DNA of 21,976 bases from IMG/VR virus record IMGVR_UViG_3300011118_000038, positions 1 to 21,976 of that record, one strand, 5' to 3'. A program made the position numbers and the translations under genes. Positions 5,462 through 21,898 of the stretch are shown here, one piece after another. The notes beneath the pieces were generated by a model. That model ran no database searches. It saw only the letters and a list, made by a program, of their open reading frames with translations, and was not told where the DNA came from. Position 1 is the first letter of the stretch; every line of letters starts with the position of its first letter. The stretch comes from a virus.

Positions 5462-7009
5462 TTATCCCACTGTGATTTCCGCTACTAGTTTCCACGTATC
5501 AGACTCAATCTTTAGAGCTACAAAACACTTCTCGCTAGGCTTATAAGCAAGACAGTATGCAAAAGCTGCACCCGACACATAGCGTTCCTGAAGCCATATG
5601 TAACCAAGGGCAAGGCATACCTTCCTAGTGGCGGGAAATACATAGTAGTCATTACGCATTAAGGCTGATTCAGTGGCCGTAAATTTTTGCCCGGATTCTT
5701 GACCGTAGTAGTGATTAAGGATTTGACGGTAATTCGCTCCTCGCCTCGCCATTTCCCTAGCACCATACTGGCACATGCGTCCAGGCCATTGCTTATCCAA
5801 GTGCCCATTCTCACCTTTACAGAAAGGACAGTTAGATAAACCACACTTGTTAACGTACATTCCACTACTTAGCCAAAGTTCGCCCGTAGTTTCACGAACG
5901 GCTTGATCGCTGCGGTCGTGAATTGTTGCTACGTTATAAACCTGGCAATGTGTTGTATTACAAAGATGTGCTTCAGTACCATGACGCGGAGATTTCATTG
6001 CACGATCAGCGTAAGTTCGTGCGGCCACAGCTTGGGCCTTTAGGGCTTCCATGTGCCAAGAAGCAGGCATCTCGGCAGGCACAACGGCACGCAGATACTC
6101 CTCTAATCGTATACTTGTAACAATAGACCCTTGTAAGAGCAGAACCTTGTCCTCACGATAAGCGTTACGAACGTACTCAGCTAGTTGGTTCTCGATCCTA
6201 CTCCCTACAATATCAAAGGTTTGCCAGTCCCTCTTTGCTCCAGTCTGGAATATGGCGGCCCACTCAATCTTGCTATCCAACTCAAGTTGACCATCATACT
6301 CTACCAACCAATGAAAGTATGCGCCCTGATCTTCGACACTCCAGAAGCCAGCATTAGAAGCATTTTTCTCAGCCAGAGCTACATCCCAACCAATCTCAGT
6401 TAGAAAGATTGTTGGTATTCTATATCCCAAGTCTTTCAGAATCTCTATATCGCGCCGATAAACAAAAACACACCATGGACTCCACTCCAGCCCCGGCTTT
6501 GCATATTCATGTTTACCTAAGATTGCGTTTGGTTGTGCCAGTGGCTCCTCGTAGAACCGCCATAATTCCGGCAACGGACGTGTAGGGGCAAAGTTGCCAA
6601 TGATAACATCGAACTCCTCACGCGCCATCAATCGGCATAGTTCAGCCTCACATGCTGCCAAGCCCTTCATTTCATCAGCATCGTGAATAATTCTCTCATT
6701 TACACTCTCAAGAGTGTTAACGCCCAGTACATTTCGCCAGTGATTTGCGTCACCAATTAGTGCATCAAAGAGACGACGTGCGCCACTCGTACCATTCCTG
6801 ATACATTCAGAAGCAATATTATCTGTCCAGGTGCGGTGCCAGACAAAGGGTCGGTTAAAGCCAACATCATCATATGCTGAGTAAATGTCATCACGAATAA
6901 ACTCAGGCGAGGTAGTTCCCATACATTTAAGCGCCGGGTATAAAGCATGACGTAGGTGATTCTTGCATTCATCACTAGGCAATTGTATATGTCCCGCTAA
7001 CTTTGTCAC
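5462..7009 (-). CDS. Two-domain phage lysin: glycosidase-like N-terminus plus SpoIID-like domain (515 aa)
   Basis: The start is a GTG at 7009 overlapping the TGA of the HIT gene. Residues about 35-290 resemble a clan-A (TIM-barrel) glycosidase: IIGNFAPTRP near 137-145, LGKHEYAKPG at 164-173 with E168, and IFLTEIGWD at 201-209 with E205 as the likely nucleophile. Residues about 302-435 are a SpoIID-like domain. EEYLRAVVPAEMPASW precedes EALKAQAVAARTYA, with E313 at the position of the catalytic Glu, and CQYGAREMARRG...ILNHYYG matches the end of the family. SpoIID is a lytic transglycosylase acting on peptidoglycan glycan strands. An SNCPFCKG segment (392-399) could bind metal. Residues 440-515 are unassigned and might bind cell wall. 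There is no signal peptide, so export would need the holin or assembly into the virion. The glycosidase call is weaker than the SpoIID call. Confidence 0.85.
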   Translation of the reverse strand: MTKLAGHIQLPSDECKNHLRHALYPALKCMGTTSPEFIRDDIYSAYDDVGFNRPFVWHRTWTDNIASECIRNGTSGARRLFDALIGDANHWRNVLGVNTLESVNERIIHDADEMKGLAACEAELCRLMAREEFDVIIGNFAPTRPLPELWRFYEEPLAQPNAILGKHEYAKPGLEWSPWCVFVYRRDIEILKDLGYRIPTIFLTEIGWDVALAEKNASNAGFWSVEDQGAYFHWLVEYDGQLELDSKIEWAAIFQTGAKRDWQTFDIVGSRIENQLAEYVRNAYREDKVLLLQGSIVTSIRLEEYLRAVVPAEMPASWHMEALKAQAVAARTYADRAMKSPRHGTEAHLCNTTHCQVYNVATIHDRSDQAVRETTGELWLSSGMYVNKCGLSNCPFCKGENGHLDKQWPGRMCQYGAREMARRGANYRQILNHYYGQESGQKFTATESALMRNDYYVFPATRKVCLALGYIWLQERYVSGAAFAYCLAYKPSEKCFVALKIESDTWKLVAEITVG

Positions 7010-8074: not shown

Positions 8075-11000
8075 TATGCTACTCCTAATCTAACTTCATA
8101 AAAATCATCCGACTTCGCCCATAACTCACCTACTGCTGCACCAGCATTTGCTTGACTTGTGCCGGTCTTCATGGCTGGCATTAGGTGGCCACCATCTTTC
8201 AAGATCGTCTCTCGCAGTGTGTTTTCAGTGTAAAGTTCAATTATGCCACCAGCTATGTTTCCTGCTACCAGTCTCACTTTCCCCGGATGTGCACCATGTT
8301 CGTTACCGGAGACGATGATCGAAGCCCCACGAGTCGCGTCGCTGGTGCCACCGCCGGTCAGAGCGGTCTGTTTAGTGTCCGATCCGTCCGCAGTGTCGGC
8401 TTTCATAGAGAAGGTGGCTGCGCTGTAGGAGATGGCTCCTGCAAGGACAAGATTCAGCGCGACGGTCAAACCGTCATCAGTCTTGAGCATGTTCGCTGCG
8501 CTACGGTACAGGTTCACGTCTGACCAGTGAAGATCTTTGCCGTCCGCGATAATGATGTCGTCGCCGACGTCGAGACCACCATCGATCTTTACATTGTCCG
8601 GCGTTCGCATCAGATTAGCCGCAGAACGATACCAAAGCGCGTCTCCACCAAGTAACAGTCCTGCAGTAGATCCTTGTAACGGAAGAGCCAACTGACCAGC
8701 ACGACCTAGACCGAGAATCTCGGAGTCGTCCGCTTTGAGAACCTGAAATCGCGAGGCTGCGAAATCCTCGATTATGTTACTAATCGTGTAGCTATCCAAC
8801 TGGATATAACCAGTTGCATCATTAGGCTCTCTGAAACATTCAATAAAACTCATACCTCCGCCTAGCGAGTGGGCTTCGAGGCGGATGGTGCTCTCATGTG
8901 TGGGATAAGAGTCTGCTTCAATGTAGATATTTGAGTTTGTATCGTGATCAGGATGAAGAACATACAAACTCACGTATGAATCAGTTTCAGTTATCAACCC
9001 CCGGAGCCTCCCAAACACGTCCCCCGTACTATCCCTAAACTTGTAGGCCCTAGTATCACTATAAGTGTCTGAGACTTCGATTCCGATCCCGCCGGAATTG
9101 AGAAAAACCACGCCAGCGCCAGCTTCAATAGCGCCTGTCACTGCATCGAATTTCGCCTGCAATACATCAACGAGCAGACCATACATCCCCGTGCGATCAA
9201 TCCAGATACCCGTACCTGTTGCAGGCAGGCCGTTTGGATCAGCTATAGGTGGCGTCGAGCCGATGCTGATAGCACTGTTCTCACCAGGCATGGTCAACTT
9301 CTTGGTGATCTCGGCCCCTAGGGCGGCGTCGAGTGTGATGACCGCATTTCCGCCGCTATCCTTCACCGTCAGGATGCCAGCCGAGGTAAGCCCTATCCGT
9401 TCTTGCGAATCTGCCCATAGTCCAAGGGAACTGCTCGTGGCTTTGAGGTAATTGTTTGTACTACCTCTGAGATAGACGCTCGTGCCGTCATACAGAAGCT
9501 GAGTACCATTAGCCACACCTACACGGAACTTGTACGTAGCAGGATCTCCATGCCTGCCCATCCAGACACCGTTGCCGCTTTGAATGGCAGTAGCTGAACC
9601 TACCGCCAGATAAGGTGTCGTCGGCTCAAGGTGTATTCGAAGATTAGCCCCGTCGTAGACTTTCACTTGAAGGTTGAATATATCAAAGCCTTCGGAACTA
9701 AGACGCATATACTGGTCGCCACTGGCTTCGTCGTGACCTTCGCCCGCGAAGAGCCCGTATTCATTCGGTGTACCAAAGATGCCATTTAGGTTGCCAGTCC
9801 GAGTCCGTACTATTCGATCATACCAGGGATGCTCGTCCCACGTTACAACCTGCGCATAGGGACTGTTTACACCCATTAACCCATCAATAGCATTGACCTC
9901 GTGGTAGCCCATACCAGTAGTGCCAAAATCAAGTGCCAATGCGCCTCGCTTAACAACGGTGCTTGTGCTCATATAGCCAGCCGCAGGGTGACCATTAACT
10001 GTGCCACTCAGCCTAGTAAAAGTCCATCGTTGTTCGGGCGGATCGCTCTGAGGAGACGGAAAGTACGGGGCACTGACGGTGCCGAAACAATTGGTGATGT
10101 CCAGTCCGCCGCCAGACCGAGAAAAGTTGCGAACCATCACTGTATCCCCGGTTACAAAAACCTCAGCGGCGGGGAATCCTAAGAAACATTCCACCCAGAG
10201 ATATGCTGTGTTACCTGCTGCTGGGGCTGTGAAATCCCGCGAAAGCGGTGCTACGCTCTTGGATATAATCTGCCCACCCGCCAAAGCCTGTTCTAGGTCA
10301 GCGATAAATGCCTTGGCGTGCATCTCGTCCACGTAGAGGTAGCGAAGGTCGGCTGCGCCTCCATAGGTGATGTGCCATCCCGTGGTTTGGCTGGCATAGC
10401 TCTCTGATTGTATCGTTACACTTTCCTGGAACTTAAGGAGATTGCCTGTGGCTGAAATGTTTACATCATCAGTACCTTCGATCTCTATACACAAATACTT
10501 GGCCGCGTCATATCCCAGACGCAACTGCTCGTCAGTCCTAATTACATGTATACCAGCGCTTGGCGATGCAACACCGATGCCAAGTATTGCGCCCATAACG
10601 GCAATGTAACCGGCAGTATAAAACTCTATTCTCTCATCGGAGCTACCAATGCCAATACTCTTGCTATTAGCCAATCGAATTTCACCCGTACCAGAACCGG
10701 TAGCCGTACCCATATTAAGTCCAATAGATATAGTAAGTGAATCATCGGTTTTAAGAATATTCACTGCACCACGATATAGGTTTACATCAGACCATAAAAT
10801 CTTATAAGCATCACCAATTGTTACATCAGCATTAAAAGTCCAAGACCCAGTAATAGTCTCTGTATCACCATAGTTGGGATATACGGCACCGTGATCGTCG
10901 TCGTCTAATGAATCAGAGTTAAGGTTCCCGTGATCTATATTGGCTTCGATAATAGTAAGCTTAAGCTGATTAGTTTCAGCAATAGACGTGAGGATATTAT

Positions 11001-11253: not shown

Positions 11254-11726
11254 TAGGCCCTCGGAAGAACTGTAACTGTCAGTGTTCGCGCTGTAATATA
11301 GCGTGTATTAACACGGTCGGCCGGCCGACGGAATTGTACTTTAACAGTGGCAGTACCAGCAGAAACAGCACTATGAAACCAAGTTGCAGATTTTAGCGGC
11401 ATGTATGTATCGTGTCCGCGCAATTCATAAGTGATACTGCTCGCTGCACCTACTAGAGACTTTAACTCACCAAGATCGCCAGTGCTAAAAAGATCGTCAA
11501 AGTTGAATGAGAAACTCACTATCATATCACAGGTTGCACCTGTTGCTATAGATAGCGACATTCCGCCCACATCATTCCAGTTGGAATTATCGGGCATAGC
11601 CCAGTTATTAACTCCAGTACCACAAGCCGTTCCGGCACTAGCTGCTACATCACGCACGTCAGCACGCAAGTTATTATACTGGCTAGCATATAGATTATTA
11701 CCAACTGCAACATCACTTGATAACAT
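11253..11726 (-). CDS. Small tail-tip or fibre-like beta protein (157 aa)
   Basis: The N-terminus VGNNLYASQYNNLRADVR (residues 7-24) parallels VGDEAVIAQYNNLRDDVL of the next gene, so both proteins may attach to the same site. Residues 45-155 are beta-rich (MSLSIATGATCDMIVSFSFN, SITYELRGHDTYMPL, TATVKVQFRRPAD, TARTLTVTVLPRA) and look like a single beta-sandwich. There are no catalytic motifs. GAGG lies seven bases before the ATG. The stop overlaps the start of the 1059-aa fibre gene (TAATG), so the pair is translationally coupled. A short fibre, collar or adaptor protein is the best guess. Confidence 0.82.
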   Translation of the reverse strand: MLSSDVAVGNNLYASQYNNLRADVRDVAASAGTACGTGVNNWAMPDNSNWNDVGGMSLSIATGATCDMIVSFSFNFDDLFSTGDLGELKSLVGAASSITYELRGHDTYMPLKSATWFHSAVSAGTATVKVQFRRPADRVNTRYITARTLTVTVLPRA

Positions 11727-18878: not shown

Positions 18879-19056
18879 GTGTTTTCCCTTGCTGCTCTCT
18901 TACCTTATCTACTCGCCCTTTAGCACTAAAGTACTCCTTAATCTGTAGATACCTCTTCAGCGAGACCTCCTCGTAAAGCTGTTTCTCAGTCCAACCAAAA
19001 TGCTCCATAACCTGTATTTCAGAGAACCAAGATGGTACGGTTTCACCCGTTCCCAT
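18844..19056 (-). CDS. Second tail assembly chaperone ORF (T-like, 70 aa)
   Basis: This is a short helical protein: MGTGETVPSWFSEIQVMEHF, then GWTEKQLYEEVSLKRYLQIKE, with a strongly basic tail (KTRGKRTHRHTQR). The aromatic motif around MEHFGWTEKQLYEEV is of the type found in the T part of siphophage G/GT chaperones that load the tube protein on the tape measure. The ATG overlaps the TAA of the preceding gene (TAATG), in the -1 frame relative to it, and there is no Shine-Dalgarno. The -1 frame stays open for 12 codons upstream (CPSRERELLFNA), so a frameshifted fusion is possible, but no canonical slippery heptamer was found. Expression is by reinitiation or frameshift. It overlaps the next gene by 35 bases. 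Confidence 0.75.
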   Translation of the reverse strand: MGTGETVPSWFSEIQVMEHFGWTEKQLYEEVSLKRYLQIKEYFSAKGRVDKVREQQGKTRGKRTHRHTQR

Positions 19057-19445
19057 TAGGGCGTTGAAGAGGAGTTCTCGCTCTCGGGAGGGACATCAAT
19101 AGTCTTTGCCTCCTGCTTAAGCCACTCACTAATCTTGCCAAGAAACTCAGTGGGTAGCTTATCAATTACGCTAGGGTCTTGTGAAGGAAGAGGCATCGGC
19201 TTATCATCGTCCTTTTCAGGATCAGTAATGTTCCAATCTACGATTAGTTGACACATAAGCGCACTGGAAATCTCGAAGGTTTCCTCGTTAGTAAGCTCAT
19301 CCTCATCCATGCCCATTTTTTCTTTGGCCATACCAACACTTATGGTATCTACGGAACGCATGATAATCCAAAAGTCAGGAATACCTAGATCATCAAAGTT
19401 AAACGTTTTAGTCTTATTAGCAAAGTATTTCGCCCACACTCCCAT
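19056..19445 (-). CDS. Tail assembly chaperone (G-like, 129 aa)
   Basis: AGAGGAG lies six bases before the ATG at 19445. The protein starts with a beta/aromatic segment (MGVWAKYFANKTKTFNFDDL), has a helical acidic middle (KEKMGMDEDELTNEETFEI, then LMCQLIVDWNI) and ends in a flexible Pro/Ser-rich tail. Size, acidity, position between tail tube and tape measure genes, and a short ORF at its 3' end in the -1 frame all fit the lambda gpG-type chaperone. In that family it keeps the tape measure soluble and recruits tube subunits. Residues are too divergent to name a family from memory. It is coupled to the MerR-like gene upstream by a TAATG junction. Confidence 0.8.
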   Translation of the reverse strand: MGVWAKYFANKTKTFNFDDLGIPDFWIIMRSVDTISVGMAKEKMGMDEDELTNEETFEISSALMCQLIVDWNITDPEKDDDKPMPLPSQDPSVIDKLPTEFLGKISEWLKQEAKTIDVPPESENSSSTP

Positions 19446-19762
19446 TACTTATCTCCTCTTGGTTTGATATTTAGTATTATTGTATTGCCACTTCTACGCA
19501 TTCTGTAACGATACTTAGATGAGTTCCAAACCTGCTCGGCCACATCTTTCATTTCTGCAATACTCTTTCTCCGCAGCGATTCAATTATACGCAGTCGTTC
19601 TAATAGGCTTACGGGATAATGTGCGCGACGACTAATAATTATCGGCTTGGGAATAAGTCCACGACCAGCCCAAAACTTTAGCGTGCGTTCCGTAATATTC
19701 ATCCCGCTTTGGTTTGCTAGTTCTGCAAGTTGGCCACGACTTACTAATACTGTCTCTGACAC
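19445..19762 (-). CDS. MerR-like winged-HTH protein between tail genes (105 aa)
   Basis: Residues 7-38 (VSRGQLAELANQSG, then NITERTLKFWAGRGLIPKP) follow the MerR pattern of helix-turn-helix plus the Tyr/Phe-W..GL.P turn. RRAHYPVSLLERLRIIESLR (45-64) is the matching wing and next helix. The usual long dimerisation helix is short and the C-terminus is basic (YRYRMRRSG), so it may be a small DNA-binding protein rather than a ligand-sensing regulator. The start is a GTG with no Shine-Dalgarno. The frame remains open upstream through the terminator-like hairpin back to a TAG near 19840, but has no other ATG, GTG or TTG. A regulator between tail tube and chaperone genes is unusual. Candidate targets are the two promoters of this window. 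Confidence 0.78.
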   Translation of the reverse strand: MSETVLVSRGQLAELANQSGMNITERTLKFWAGRGLIPKPIIISRRAHYPVSLLERLRIIESLRRKSIAEMKDVAEQVWNSSKYRYRMRRSGNTIILNIKPRGDK

Positions 19763-19787
19763 ACTACTGTTAGCTTTCGTTGAACTG

Positions 19788-19822
19788 AAAAAGGAACCTT
19801 TAGAGTATTCTTCCAGTTCCTT
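19788..19822 (-). terminator. Terminator-like hairpin after the second tail-tube gene
   Basis: On the minus strand AAGGAAC (19822-19816) pairs with GTTCCTT (19797-19791) across an 18-base loop. The second arm runs into five T residues (19792-19788). The stem is only 7 bp and the loop long, so termination is probably partial. It starts eight bases after the stop of the tube gene. Confidence 0.5.
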
Positions 19823-19829
19823 ATTCAGA

Positions 19830-20777
19830 TTAGGCTACATAACTATCTTCGGCGTTCTTCATGGTAAACTGACAGTTACCAACATCAGTCGTGTTGTAAA
19901 GCGCACGCATAGTGTATGCAAGAGTTAGGTTGGGACCGCTGCGATCAATCTCAGCAGCACCGTCACCAAAGTCCATATTGGTAGCTGTAAATACCATTTC
20001 TTTCTCAGCCGTACCAGAGCCATAGCCCCAAGTCAACCGGAACTGTTCTTGATCCTTATTCAAGTATCTGTTATAGTCGTCATTAGAATCAAAGAGCAAC
20101 GTTACGCGTCCAGTGCACTCAAGCGGACCGGCAACAGCAGTGCCGGGGTCCTGTGTGTCACCATCAACCCAAACTAGGTTAACTTCACGACTTAGCGTCA
20201 ACTCACCTTCAATGATCTTGCCAAAAGCCGCAGTTCCCGAACCCACTATAGCACTAACATGCCAGCCTCGGAACGGAGACGTGGTTGCCTCAGCGTCAAT
20301 TGTACCAGCGCCAGGATCAGTCTTGCTTTTACCCACTACTGACGTTGAATATCGTAGCAATCCTTCAGCAGCATTGAAAGTAAGCGAAAGCTCAGAAACC
20401 ATACAGCCACCATAACGGTAAGTCTGAATAGCATTCTCGTCTTGGAAAGAAAACGAAGGCGGGTATGAGCCAACGCGAAAAGTGTGGCTATACGGCGCGG
20501 CAGTGCCTGAAACTCCGGCGCTACCCATAATGCCATAAAGTAGGTAACCAAACTCTTCGGGATAGACATTACCCTCAAAAGAACCCTCAACATGCGTAAC
20601 ACCCTGATAAGCAGCATAATCAAGGACAGGCGCACCACGCATGTCCTGATCTAGCAACTGCTCATAAGCAACAGTAAAAGAAGGCGGCGCAACGGGCAAT
20701 AGAAAAGATGGCGTAACAGTACCACCCCAACTAGACTCTCGCCCAAAACCAATTTTAGTCAGGTACGAAATTGTCAT
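19830..20777 (-). CDS. Major tail tube protein, probable (315 aa)
   Basis: This protein and the one encoded at 20876-21898 are homologous from end to end. They share LLYGIMGSAGVSG / LVQGIMGSAEVIG, RYLNKDQEQF / RYLNKTQEEF and MDFGDG..EI.R, followed by an L.Y..RALY..TD.G.C.F ending. Size, beta-rich content and placement before the chaperone and tape measure genes indicate tail tube subunits that stack as rings. This copy has its own promoter (20837-20865), a leader hairpin (20793-20818), a strong AAGGGG Shine-Dalgarno seven bases before the ATG and a terminator-like hairpin after it. That fits high expression, so it is the better candidate for the major subunit. Family name (Phage_tube_2-like) is from recollection of the pattern, not a search. 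Confidence 0.87.
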   Translation of the reverse strand: MTISYLTKIGFGRESSWGGTVTPSFLLPVAPPSFTVAYEQLLDQDMRGAPVLDYAAYQGVTHVEGSFEGNVYPEEFGYLLYGIMGSAGVSGTAAPYSHTFRVGSYPPSFSFQDENAIQTYRYGGCMVSELSLTFNAAEGLLRYSTSVVGKSKTDPGAGTIDAEATTSPFRGWHVSAIVGSGTAAFGKIIEGELTLSREVNLVWVDGDTQDPGTAVAGPLECTGRVTLLFDSNDDYNRYLNKDQEQFRLTWGYGSGTAEKEMVFTATNMDFGDGAAEIDRSGPNLTLAYTMRALYNTTDVGNCQFTMKNAEDSYVA

Positions 20778-20792
20778 TTCATTACCCCTTCT

Positions 20793-20818
20793 AGGAAACC
20801 GCTAAAGAGTAGTTTCCT
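20793..20818 (-). other. Leader stem-loop of the tail-tube mRNA
   Basis: AGGAAAC (20818-20812 read on the minus strand) pairs with GTTTCCT (20799-20793) across a 12-base loop. It starts about a dozen bases downstream of the predicted transcription start and ends just before the Shine-Dalgarno. No T run follows, so it is not a terminator; a 5' stabilising hairpin or a target of a regulator is more likely. Confidence 0.6.
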
Positions 20819-20836
20819 CATTTCCCCGGTTGTAAT

Positions 20837-20865
20837 ATAATATCATAGTTTGCTAGTGAAGTCAA
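20837..20865 (-). promoter_or_regulatory. Sigma70-type promoter with extended -10 before the major tail-tube gene
   Basis: On the minus strand TTGACT (20865-20860), a 17-base spacer and TATTAT (20842-20837). The spacer ends in TATGA, giving a TGn extended -10. It begins about ten bases after the stop of the first tube gene, within a 98-base gap. Spacer bases AGCAAACTATG are identical in sequence and position to the promoter at 5157-5185. GTCAGTTGAC, a short inverted repeat, overlaps the -35 and could be an operator. Confidence 0.82.
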
Positions 20866-20875
20866 CTGACCACTG

Positions 20876-21898
20876 TTAACTAGCGGTTACTTCAAAAATA
20901 CAGGGGCCAGCATCATCGGCATCATAAAGTGCACGCGCGCTATAAGTAAGACGTATTTCTGTACTTGTTCGTTCTATCTCAACGGGACCATCACCGAAGT
21001 CCATATTTTTCGCTTGGAAGTATAGGGTATGCACACCCCTTGTCCACGTAACCTCAAACTCTTCTTGAGTTTTATTAAGGTAACGATTTAGATCAGAATC
21101 ACTATCCCAAAGAATAGTGATAAGACAAGTAATGCCTAATAGTCCTGAGTGAATAGTTGATGGTGCATCATAAAGGTTACCGAACTGTAACGCTGACTCA
21201 CGTGTAAGAACTATTTCAACGTCAGTTACTTTATTAAGAGTGGCTGGGTCACCAAACTTTGCTGCTGCTGACCAGCCCAAAAATGGACTACCAAGGTCAG
21301 GCATTGCCCCCCAACCACCACCACTACCACCGCCACCGGTAGCCGGTCCCCACCGCGCACCATCACTCCACTTAAAGTGGCCTTCTTCAGCATCCCACTC
21401 TTCGACGCTACTAGCCCACTTTATTACGTCAACGGCTATCGCCCCCCAAGTCATATCTTGACCCAAAAGCCCAGCACTCCAAACAAGTACGCCGCTCTCA
21501 GATGAGTAAGATAACTGGAGTTCATTTACTAAGCAACCACGATACCGCTGAATATCATCGCCCGCGGTAATATCTAAGTCCTGAACTTGGAAGGATAATG
21601 AAGGTACAGAGGTGCTAAGTCCATACCGAGTTCCACCGCCAATAACTTCTGCTGACCCCATAATACCTTGAACAAGAGAGTCAATAGATGTTGGATATAC
21701 CATACCGCCAACTTCTATGGCTGCGTGCTGTGGTCCGGCATAAGACGCAAAATCGAAAGCCGCAATTCCTCTTACGCCTTGATCTAGCTCAACACTCTTC
21801 TGAATATATAAATTAGCACTAGATACAGGCGTTCTTGCCGATGGTGGATTGAAGATGCCAAAGTCATCTTCTATCTTCCAGCCCACAATTGACCGCAT
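20876..21898 (-). CDS. Tail tube paralogue with Trp/Gly-rich insertion (340 aa)
   Basis: It is homologous to the 315-aa tube protein along its whole length. Near the middle it carries about 40-50 extra residues (about 151-200): WGAIAVDVIKWASSVEEW, then a charged FKWSDGARWGP segment and a glycine run (GGGGSGGGW), before the two proteins align again at SPFLGW / SPFRGW. The insert lies between strands and may form a surface projection or a small module on a flexible linker. The start ATG has no Shine-Dalgarno and overlaps a TAA (TAATG), so it probably depends on translation from upstream. It could be a minor tube subunit, an end ring near the neck or tip, or an alternative tube protein. Confidence 0.85.
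   Translation of the reverse strand: MRSIVGWKIEDDFGIFNPPSARTPVSSANLYIQKSVELDQGVRGIAAFDFASYAGPQHAAIEVGGMVYPTSIDSLVQGIMGSAEVIGGGTRYGLSTSVPSLSFQVQDLDITAGDDIQRYRGCLVNELQLSYSSESGVLVWSAGLLGQDMTWGAIAVDVIKWASSVEEWDAEEGHFKWSDGARWGPATGGGGSGGGWGAMPDLGSPFLGWSAAAKFGDPATLNKVTDVEIVLTRESALQFGNLYDAPSTIHSGLLGITCLITILWDSDSDLNRYLNKTQEEFEVTWTRGVHTLYFQAKNMDFGDGPVEIERTSTEIRLTYSARALYDADDAGPCIFEVTAS

Follow-up and report, generated by a model that had tools for sequence, protein, structure and literature searches.

A tail-tube gene with a predicted host-type promoter and a 3' hairpin in the late region of a phage with two tube paralogues

Background

The stretch of virus DNA considered here raises the question of how one of two neighbouring tail-tube genes, embedded in a long cluster of late genes, might be expressed above the other. 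A start signal of its own inside such a cluster would allow more of the downstream tube protein to be made than of the neighbouring products. A preliminary description had portrayed the second tube gene as a self-contained expression cassette, with promoter, leader hairpin, strong Shine-Dalgarno sequence and terminator-like hairpin, inside an otherwise continuous operon. In phage T7, gene 10A is preceded by phi10 and followed by Tphi (PMC6068830), and SPP1 has predicted terminator hairpins after its capsid gene 13 (stop at 8777, hairpin at 8775-8815) and its tube gene 17.1* (stop at 11,279, hairpin at 11,255-11,304), with no late promoters found besides PL1 and PL2 (PMC6316719).

Results and discussion

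The phage, its relatives and the two tube genes

The analysed DNA, hereafter the window, is a virus record of 21,976 nt, in which all elements of the proposed cassette lie on the minus strand. The phage is also represented by a record of 109,319 nt (G002); the window, a circularly permuted portion of that phage, matches this record over 12,693 nt with two mismatches and over 9,319 plus 108 nt with none. The ends of G002 overlap by 144 nt within the window, an overlap suggesting that the full genome measures about 109.2 kb; its minus strand carries the late genes and its plus strand most other genes. Sequence searches of IMG/VR recovered three records nearly identical to the window and four distinct related phages, whose tube protein B is 68% (L006), 59% (L007), 39-40% (L026) and 34-35% (L027, whose contig is L033) identical to that of the window phage; L048 is a distant relative by its capsid protein, and two scans of genome_contigs found no relatives. 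We term the downstream tube gene B and its upstream paralogue A. The features around B, in the order of transcription, are as follows:

20876..21898, minus strand: paralogue A, 340 aa (PF18906, 53.9 bits), without a Shine-Dalgarno sequence, its start overlapping the stop of the preceding gene
20837..20865, minus strand: predicted sigma70-type promoter of B, TTGACT, 17 nt, TATTAT, with extended -10 (10 of 12 consensus positions)
20793..20818, minus strand: leader hairpin between promoter and Shine-Dalgarno sequence (-9.8 kcal/mol, z 0.19)
20785..20790, minus strand: Shine-Dalgarno sequence AAGGGG of B, 7 nt before the ATG (-8.1 kcal/mol with the anti-Shine-Dalgarno sequence)
19830..20777, minus strand: tube gene B, 315 aa (PF18906 Phage_tube_2, 100.7 bits, E 1.4e-28; phrog_290, E 8.8e-31)
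19785..19828, minus strand: 3' hairpin directly after the B stop, a putative boundary or stabilising element or leaky terminator (-17.6 kcal/mol, z -3.5 to -3.75)
19445..19762, minus strand: MerR-like HTH gene following B (PF13411, 32 bits, cut-off 21.6), aligned with its counterparts in L006, L026 and L027

Both tube proteins exceed the curated Phage_tube_2 threshold of 27 bits in Pfam, in agreement with the earlier designation of B as a second tail-tube gene, and B is probably the main tail-tube protein. The predicted structures (mean pLDDT 40.7 for B and 43.0 for A) are of too low a confidence to bear on the fold. Among the four relatives, A is present in L006 and L007 only. The A-B pair is accordingly known from just three phages, and no further ones were found with B, A or capsid-protein queries and alignments, or with a DNA pattern for a promoter within codons; the pattern recovered 16 stretches, two of them in tube genes, both already known. 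The overlap of the start of A with the end of the preceding gene is seen in the window phage, on the ORF map of G002, and in L006. In all three phages (window 20876-21898, minus strand; L006 4943-5983; L007 2141-3109) A also carries a Trp-rich mid-protein insertion of some 30-60 residues that B lacks.

A promoter-like site ahead of B, and others in the late region

The predicted promoter of B lies within the 98-nt gap between A and B and has a TG ahead of its -10 hexamer. A bare match to the consensus means little: in 20 kb, a simple consensus search yields 31 sites where 34.2 would be expected from shuffled sequence, so that such matches are not enriched as a class. A graded score based on E. 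coli frequencies, which may not be those of the host, gives this site 13.84, a value reached in two of 5000 dinucleotide shuffles of the gap and ranking second on the coding strand of the 22-kb window and seventh on both strands of the 109-kb genome. Its near-consensus hexamers are spaced within the 16-18 nt of sigma70/sigmaA promoters and, as far as the sequence alone can tell, it stands directly upstream of its gene, as in a T7-like unit. With counterparts at the same place in L006 and L007, described below, the site is very probably a real promoter, and this part of the preliminary description holds.

On the graded score, 17 sites in the 109-kb genome reach at least 12 and eight reach at least 13.8. 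Seven of these eight are intergenic on a crude ORF map, among them those ahead of B and of a 718-aa gene which, read from its sequence without a family search, appears to encode a fused protease-capsid protein. Five strong intergenic sites lie on the late strand (positions in G002):

23923, late strand: near the start of the late operon
21454, late strand: ahead of a 199-aa gene
16476, late strand: 20 nt ahead of the 718-aa protease-capsid gene
11582, late strand: ahead of B
105077, late strand: ahead of a 272-aa phosphoesterase gene

The operon around B had been taken to be otherwise continuous, but other strong promoter-like sites are present in it, one of them just before the capsid gene, and the fused protease-capsid gene appears to have a promoter of its own too. 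In the L006 contig, the third-best site lies ahead of the capsid gene. In the window, the best site on the coding strand is a perfect TTGACA-17-TATAAT with extended -10 (5185-5157, minus strand); it lies in the late region, 35 nt ahead of a gene for a metallophosphoesterase-like protein of 272 aa, and no promoter-like site in the 109-kb genome is stronger, although it shares the top rank.

Counterparts in two relatives lie within the codons of A

In both L006 and L007 (contigs of 17,957 and 11,999 nt scanned), the best coding-strand site of the whole contig stands just upstream of B. That of L006, TTGACT-18-TATAAT, matches 11 of 12 consensus positions and ends 56 nt before the B start codon, and that of L007, TTGACA-18-TATAAT, matches all 12 and ends 289 nt before it, both distances being obtained by arithmetic. 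The second-best site of L026, TTGACG-17-TATCAT, lies 199 nt before B; a scan of the L027 contig revealed no strong site there. The L006 and L007 sites fall within the last codons of A, at a motif, L-T-Y-x-x-R-x-L-Y-N, that is common to the tube proteins. The last 54 codons of A were resampled synonymously 3000 times, with codons drawn at the frequencies seen in the main genes of the contig, and a site as good as the observed one arose in 11 resamples for L006 and in seven for L007. The final codons of A in the window phage, whose promoter is in the gap, hold no such site, and 1726 of 3000 resamples were equally good.

These observations are compatible with a more specific scenario, namely that the promoter setting the ratio of the two tube paralogues is written in conserved codons at the C-terminal end of the minor paralogue (TTGACW-18-TATAAT), this DNA being selected at once for the tube protein it encodes and as promoter of the next tube gene, that the window phage has replaced it with a free-standing promoter in the gap, and that the MerR-like regulator, whose near-unique palindrome lies behind the unit, may switch it. 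We regard this composite picture as possible, and advance it tentatively. If the embedded promoter were confirmed, codons in paralogous structural genes would be under regulatory and coding constraint at once. A literature search, with most subscription papers outside its reach, found no description of a tube-gene promoter inside a tube gene or inside the codons of the gene's own paralogue.

The leader of B in L007 consists of 289 nt of degenerate repeats. More generally, degenerate tandem repeats with units of 14-50 nt, differing from gap to gap, occupy most of the spaces that separate the structural genes of L007 (1302-1350, 1415-1508, 2059-2160, 3098-3143, 3190-3302, 4291-4397 and 8645-8916); none of this kind were seen in the corresponding region of the window.

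Translation signals and codon usage

The Shine-Dalgarno sequence of B had been called strong; it is good, ranking fourth among 23 genes of the window, but not exceptional, as that of the capsid gene reaches -15.6 kcal/mol. The corresponding value for A is +0.4 kcal/mol, 22nd of the 23. With the capsid gene as reference, the codon index of B exceeds that of A in the window phage (0.706 vs 0.641, permutation P 0.0086) and in L006 (0.703 vs 0.579, 0 of 10,000 permutations). In L007, where the reference is a gene of only 134 codons, the direction is the opposite (0.515 for B vs 0.544 for A, P 0.80). Promoter, ribosome-binding site and codon usage together suggest that more B than A is made, with the codon usage of L007 dissenting, and B is likely to be the major and A the minor tube protein. 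The proposal that B is raised over its neighbours, A included, gains from the conserved position of the promoter, from the promoter-like site at the capsid gene, from the missing Shine-Dalgarno sequence of A and the overlap of A with the stop before it, and from codon usage in two phages, but not from that of L007. On this reading, the bulk of the tail would consist of B.

Hairpins before and after B

The leader hairpin is present as described, but its energy is average for its composition and an equally long perfect stem occurs in 173 of 5000 shuffles. No such hairpin was seen in L006 or L007, and we rejected it as a regulatory element, since it is not above chance. An Rfam search of positions 19600-21000 gave no match up to an E value of 1.

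The 3' hairpin of B, by comparison, has the lowest z among 23 gene ends in the window. It has TTTTT in its 3' arm, with the U-run mostly within the stem, and thus departs from the G+C-rich stem followed by a U-tract of an intrinsic (Rho-independent) terminator; a terminator scan of the window did not list it. By a terminator formula, its score is -3.5 or -26.6 according to which pairs are included, and the hairpins after the tube genes of L006, L027, Thermoanaerobacterium phage THSA-485A and Arthrobacter phage Mufasa8 score -17.9, -11.0, -40.8 and +6.2, compared with +15.0 for an SPP1 terminator. A clear hairpin stands right after the tube gene in five of seven phages (the window phage, L006, L027, THSA-485A and Mufasa8), a count for which THSA-485A and Mufasa8 have no z and L006 has a z of -1.9 from a 60-nt stretch that cuts the stem; in L026 the hairpin is weak (z -0.9), and in L007 it is absent (z -0.7). 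The gene of about 136 aa behind the capsid gene is likewise followed by a strong hairpin in all four phages open to this comparison (z -5.46 in L006, -4.28 in L007 and -5.84 in L027; -23.7 kcal/mol in the window phage). Most hairpins at these two places lack a U-tract, including those after the tube genes of L006 and L027, and the terminator scores are low; we therefore read the hairpin of B as a boundary or mRNA-stabilising element, perhaps a leaky stop, which fits better than a terminator. The terminator-like hairpin of the preliminary description is thus real as a hairpin and weak as a terminator; it is the terminator reading that the relatives without a U-tract and its own score below zero weaken. 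In THSA-485A, the hairpin after the tube gene (L011, about 5935-5982) base-pairs with the ribosome-binding site of the gene that follows and has a GGTATAAT stretch in its upper part.

A model for the expression of B, and its alternatives

Taken together, we consider it probable that B, like the protease-capsid gene upstream in the operon, is served by a host-type (sigma70/sigmaA) promoter of its own in addition to the long late transcript, and that this is combined with a good Shine-Dalgarno sequence, capsid-like codons and a 3' hairpin, A being a minor component made at a low level. Host RNA polymerase would initiate about 50 nt upstream of B, and the Shine-Dalgarno sequence and codons would favour high translation of the message. 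The hairpin after the stop would protect the 3' end of the B message, halt part of the transcripts, or both, with the remainder running on into the chaperone and tape-measure genes. A, without a Shine-Dalgarno sequence, would be coupled to the preceding gene and thereby be kept low.

A true self-contained cassette would require the 3' hairpin to act as an efficient intrinsic terminator, so that the B message is mostly monocistronic, at about 1.05 kb. The low z of the hairpin and its TTTTT are in keeping with this, as are the terminator-like score in Mufasa8 and the predicted terminators right behind the capsid and tube genes of SPP1 (PMC6316719). However, the U-run lies mostly in the stem, the score falls far short of that of the SPP1 terminator, hairpins without a U-tract occupy the same place in L006 and L027, and the chaperone and tape-measure genes come next on the same strand; these would have to be reached by read-through or from other promoters. 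We consider such a cassette unlikely, and the preliminary description of one only partly right: its promoter and 3' hairpin stand, but self-containment is not supported, the leader hairpin being no better than chance and the terminator doubtful. Even less support attaches to a scheme in which B is transcribed only with the late operon, flanking hairpins guide RNase cleavage to yield a stable B message and the promoter match is incidental. The hairpins without a U-tract behind B in several phages, and those behind the gene of about 136 aa, would suit it, but one of the flanking hairpins is the leader hairpin, at chance level and unseen in L006 and L007, and both of these relatives have a counterpart of the promoter at that position; we hold processing of this kind to be very unlikely.

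The promoter of the favoured model might itself be questioned, if the L006 and L007 sites were by-products of the L-T-Y-x-x-R-x-L-Y-N motif and the window site an AT-rich chance match. The motif fixes part of both hexamers as well as the 18-nt spacing, and its occurrence at the end of B in L007 yields the third-best site of that contig. Still, with the amino acids held fixed, very few resamples reach the observed sites, and TTG is a minor leucine codon in L007 (6.6%); the window site lies outside codons and is rarely matched by shuffles, and all three sites stand just before B, which makes coincidence improbable.

Comparison with known systems

The favoured arrangement, a promoter superimposed on a late transcript, would be ordinary in kind and already known from other phages, the twist being a promoter written into the conserved codons of A. 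The likeness to phi10-gene 10A-Tphi of T7 lies in a promoter before and a stop signal after a gene whose product is required in hundreds of copies, within a longer transcribed region; T7, however, uses its own RNA polymerase, a proven terminator and a capsid gene, whereas the window phage has a host-type promoter, a doubtful terminator and a tail-tube gene. The SPP1 late region resembles the window phage in the hairpins directly behind the capsid and tube genes and in having two tube proteins, but these are made from one gene by frameshifting rather than from paralogues, and the hairpins have long U-tracts. THSA-485A (29% identity) and Mufasa8 (26%) are the nearest named phages by tube protein. 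Both have a hairpin behind the tube gene, that of Mufasa8 scoring as a terminator and that of THSA-485A not; in contrast to the window phage, no second tube gene was seen in either by a protein search that reports one place per record. The window phage would offer a testable example of how a phage with one long late operon on host-type promoters overproduces its two most abundant proteins.

The MerR-like gene and other features of the neighbourhood

The MerR-like gene is lodged between the tube and chaperone genes. It occupies the same place in L006, L026 and L027, was not seen there in L007, and its product gave no match in the phage records searched. A TGACA-N6-TGTCA palindrome lies at the start of the gene in all four phages that have it (window 19757..19772, minus strand; L006 7011-7026; L026 2815-2830; L033 5999-6014). 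It is exact in L006 and L026 and has one mismatch in the window and in L027, and the surrounding reading frame differs. At up to one mismatch it is the sole match in the six pieces of G002, in the L006 contig and in L026, L033 having one further match. The simplest reading of the palindrome is as a candidate DNA operator at which a phage regulator encoded within the tail operon would act.

The G and T frames of the tail chaperone overlap in the -1 frame in five of five phages (window about 19056-19095, minus strand; L006 7680-7710; L007 4860-4890; L026 3408-3453; L027 5565-5691). Ahead of any ATG, the T frame already encodes a similar peptide, whose beginning lies near a shared NTCCC[TA] (CCCAAAA in L026), and a programmed -1 frameshift is likely, in four of the phages without a canonical XXXYYYZ heptamer. 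The late region of the window also encodes a 515-aa protein with a SpoIID domain (PF08486, 92.5 bits; 5462-7009, minus strand), perhaps a lytic or cell-wall enzyme.
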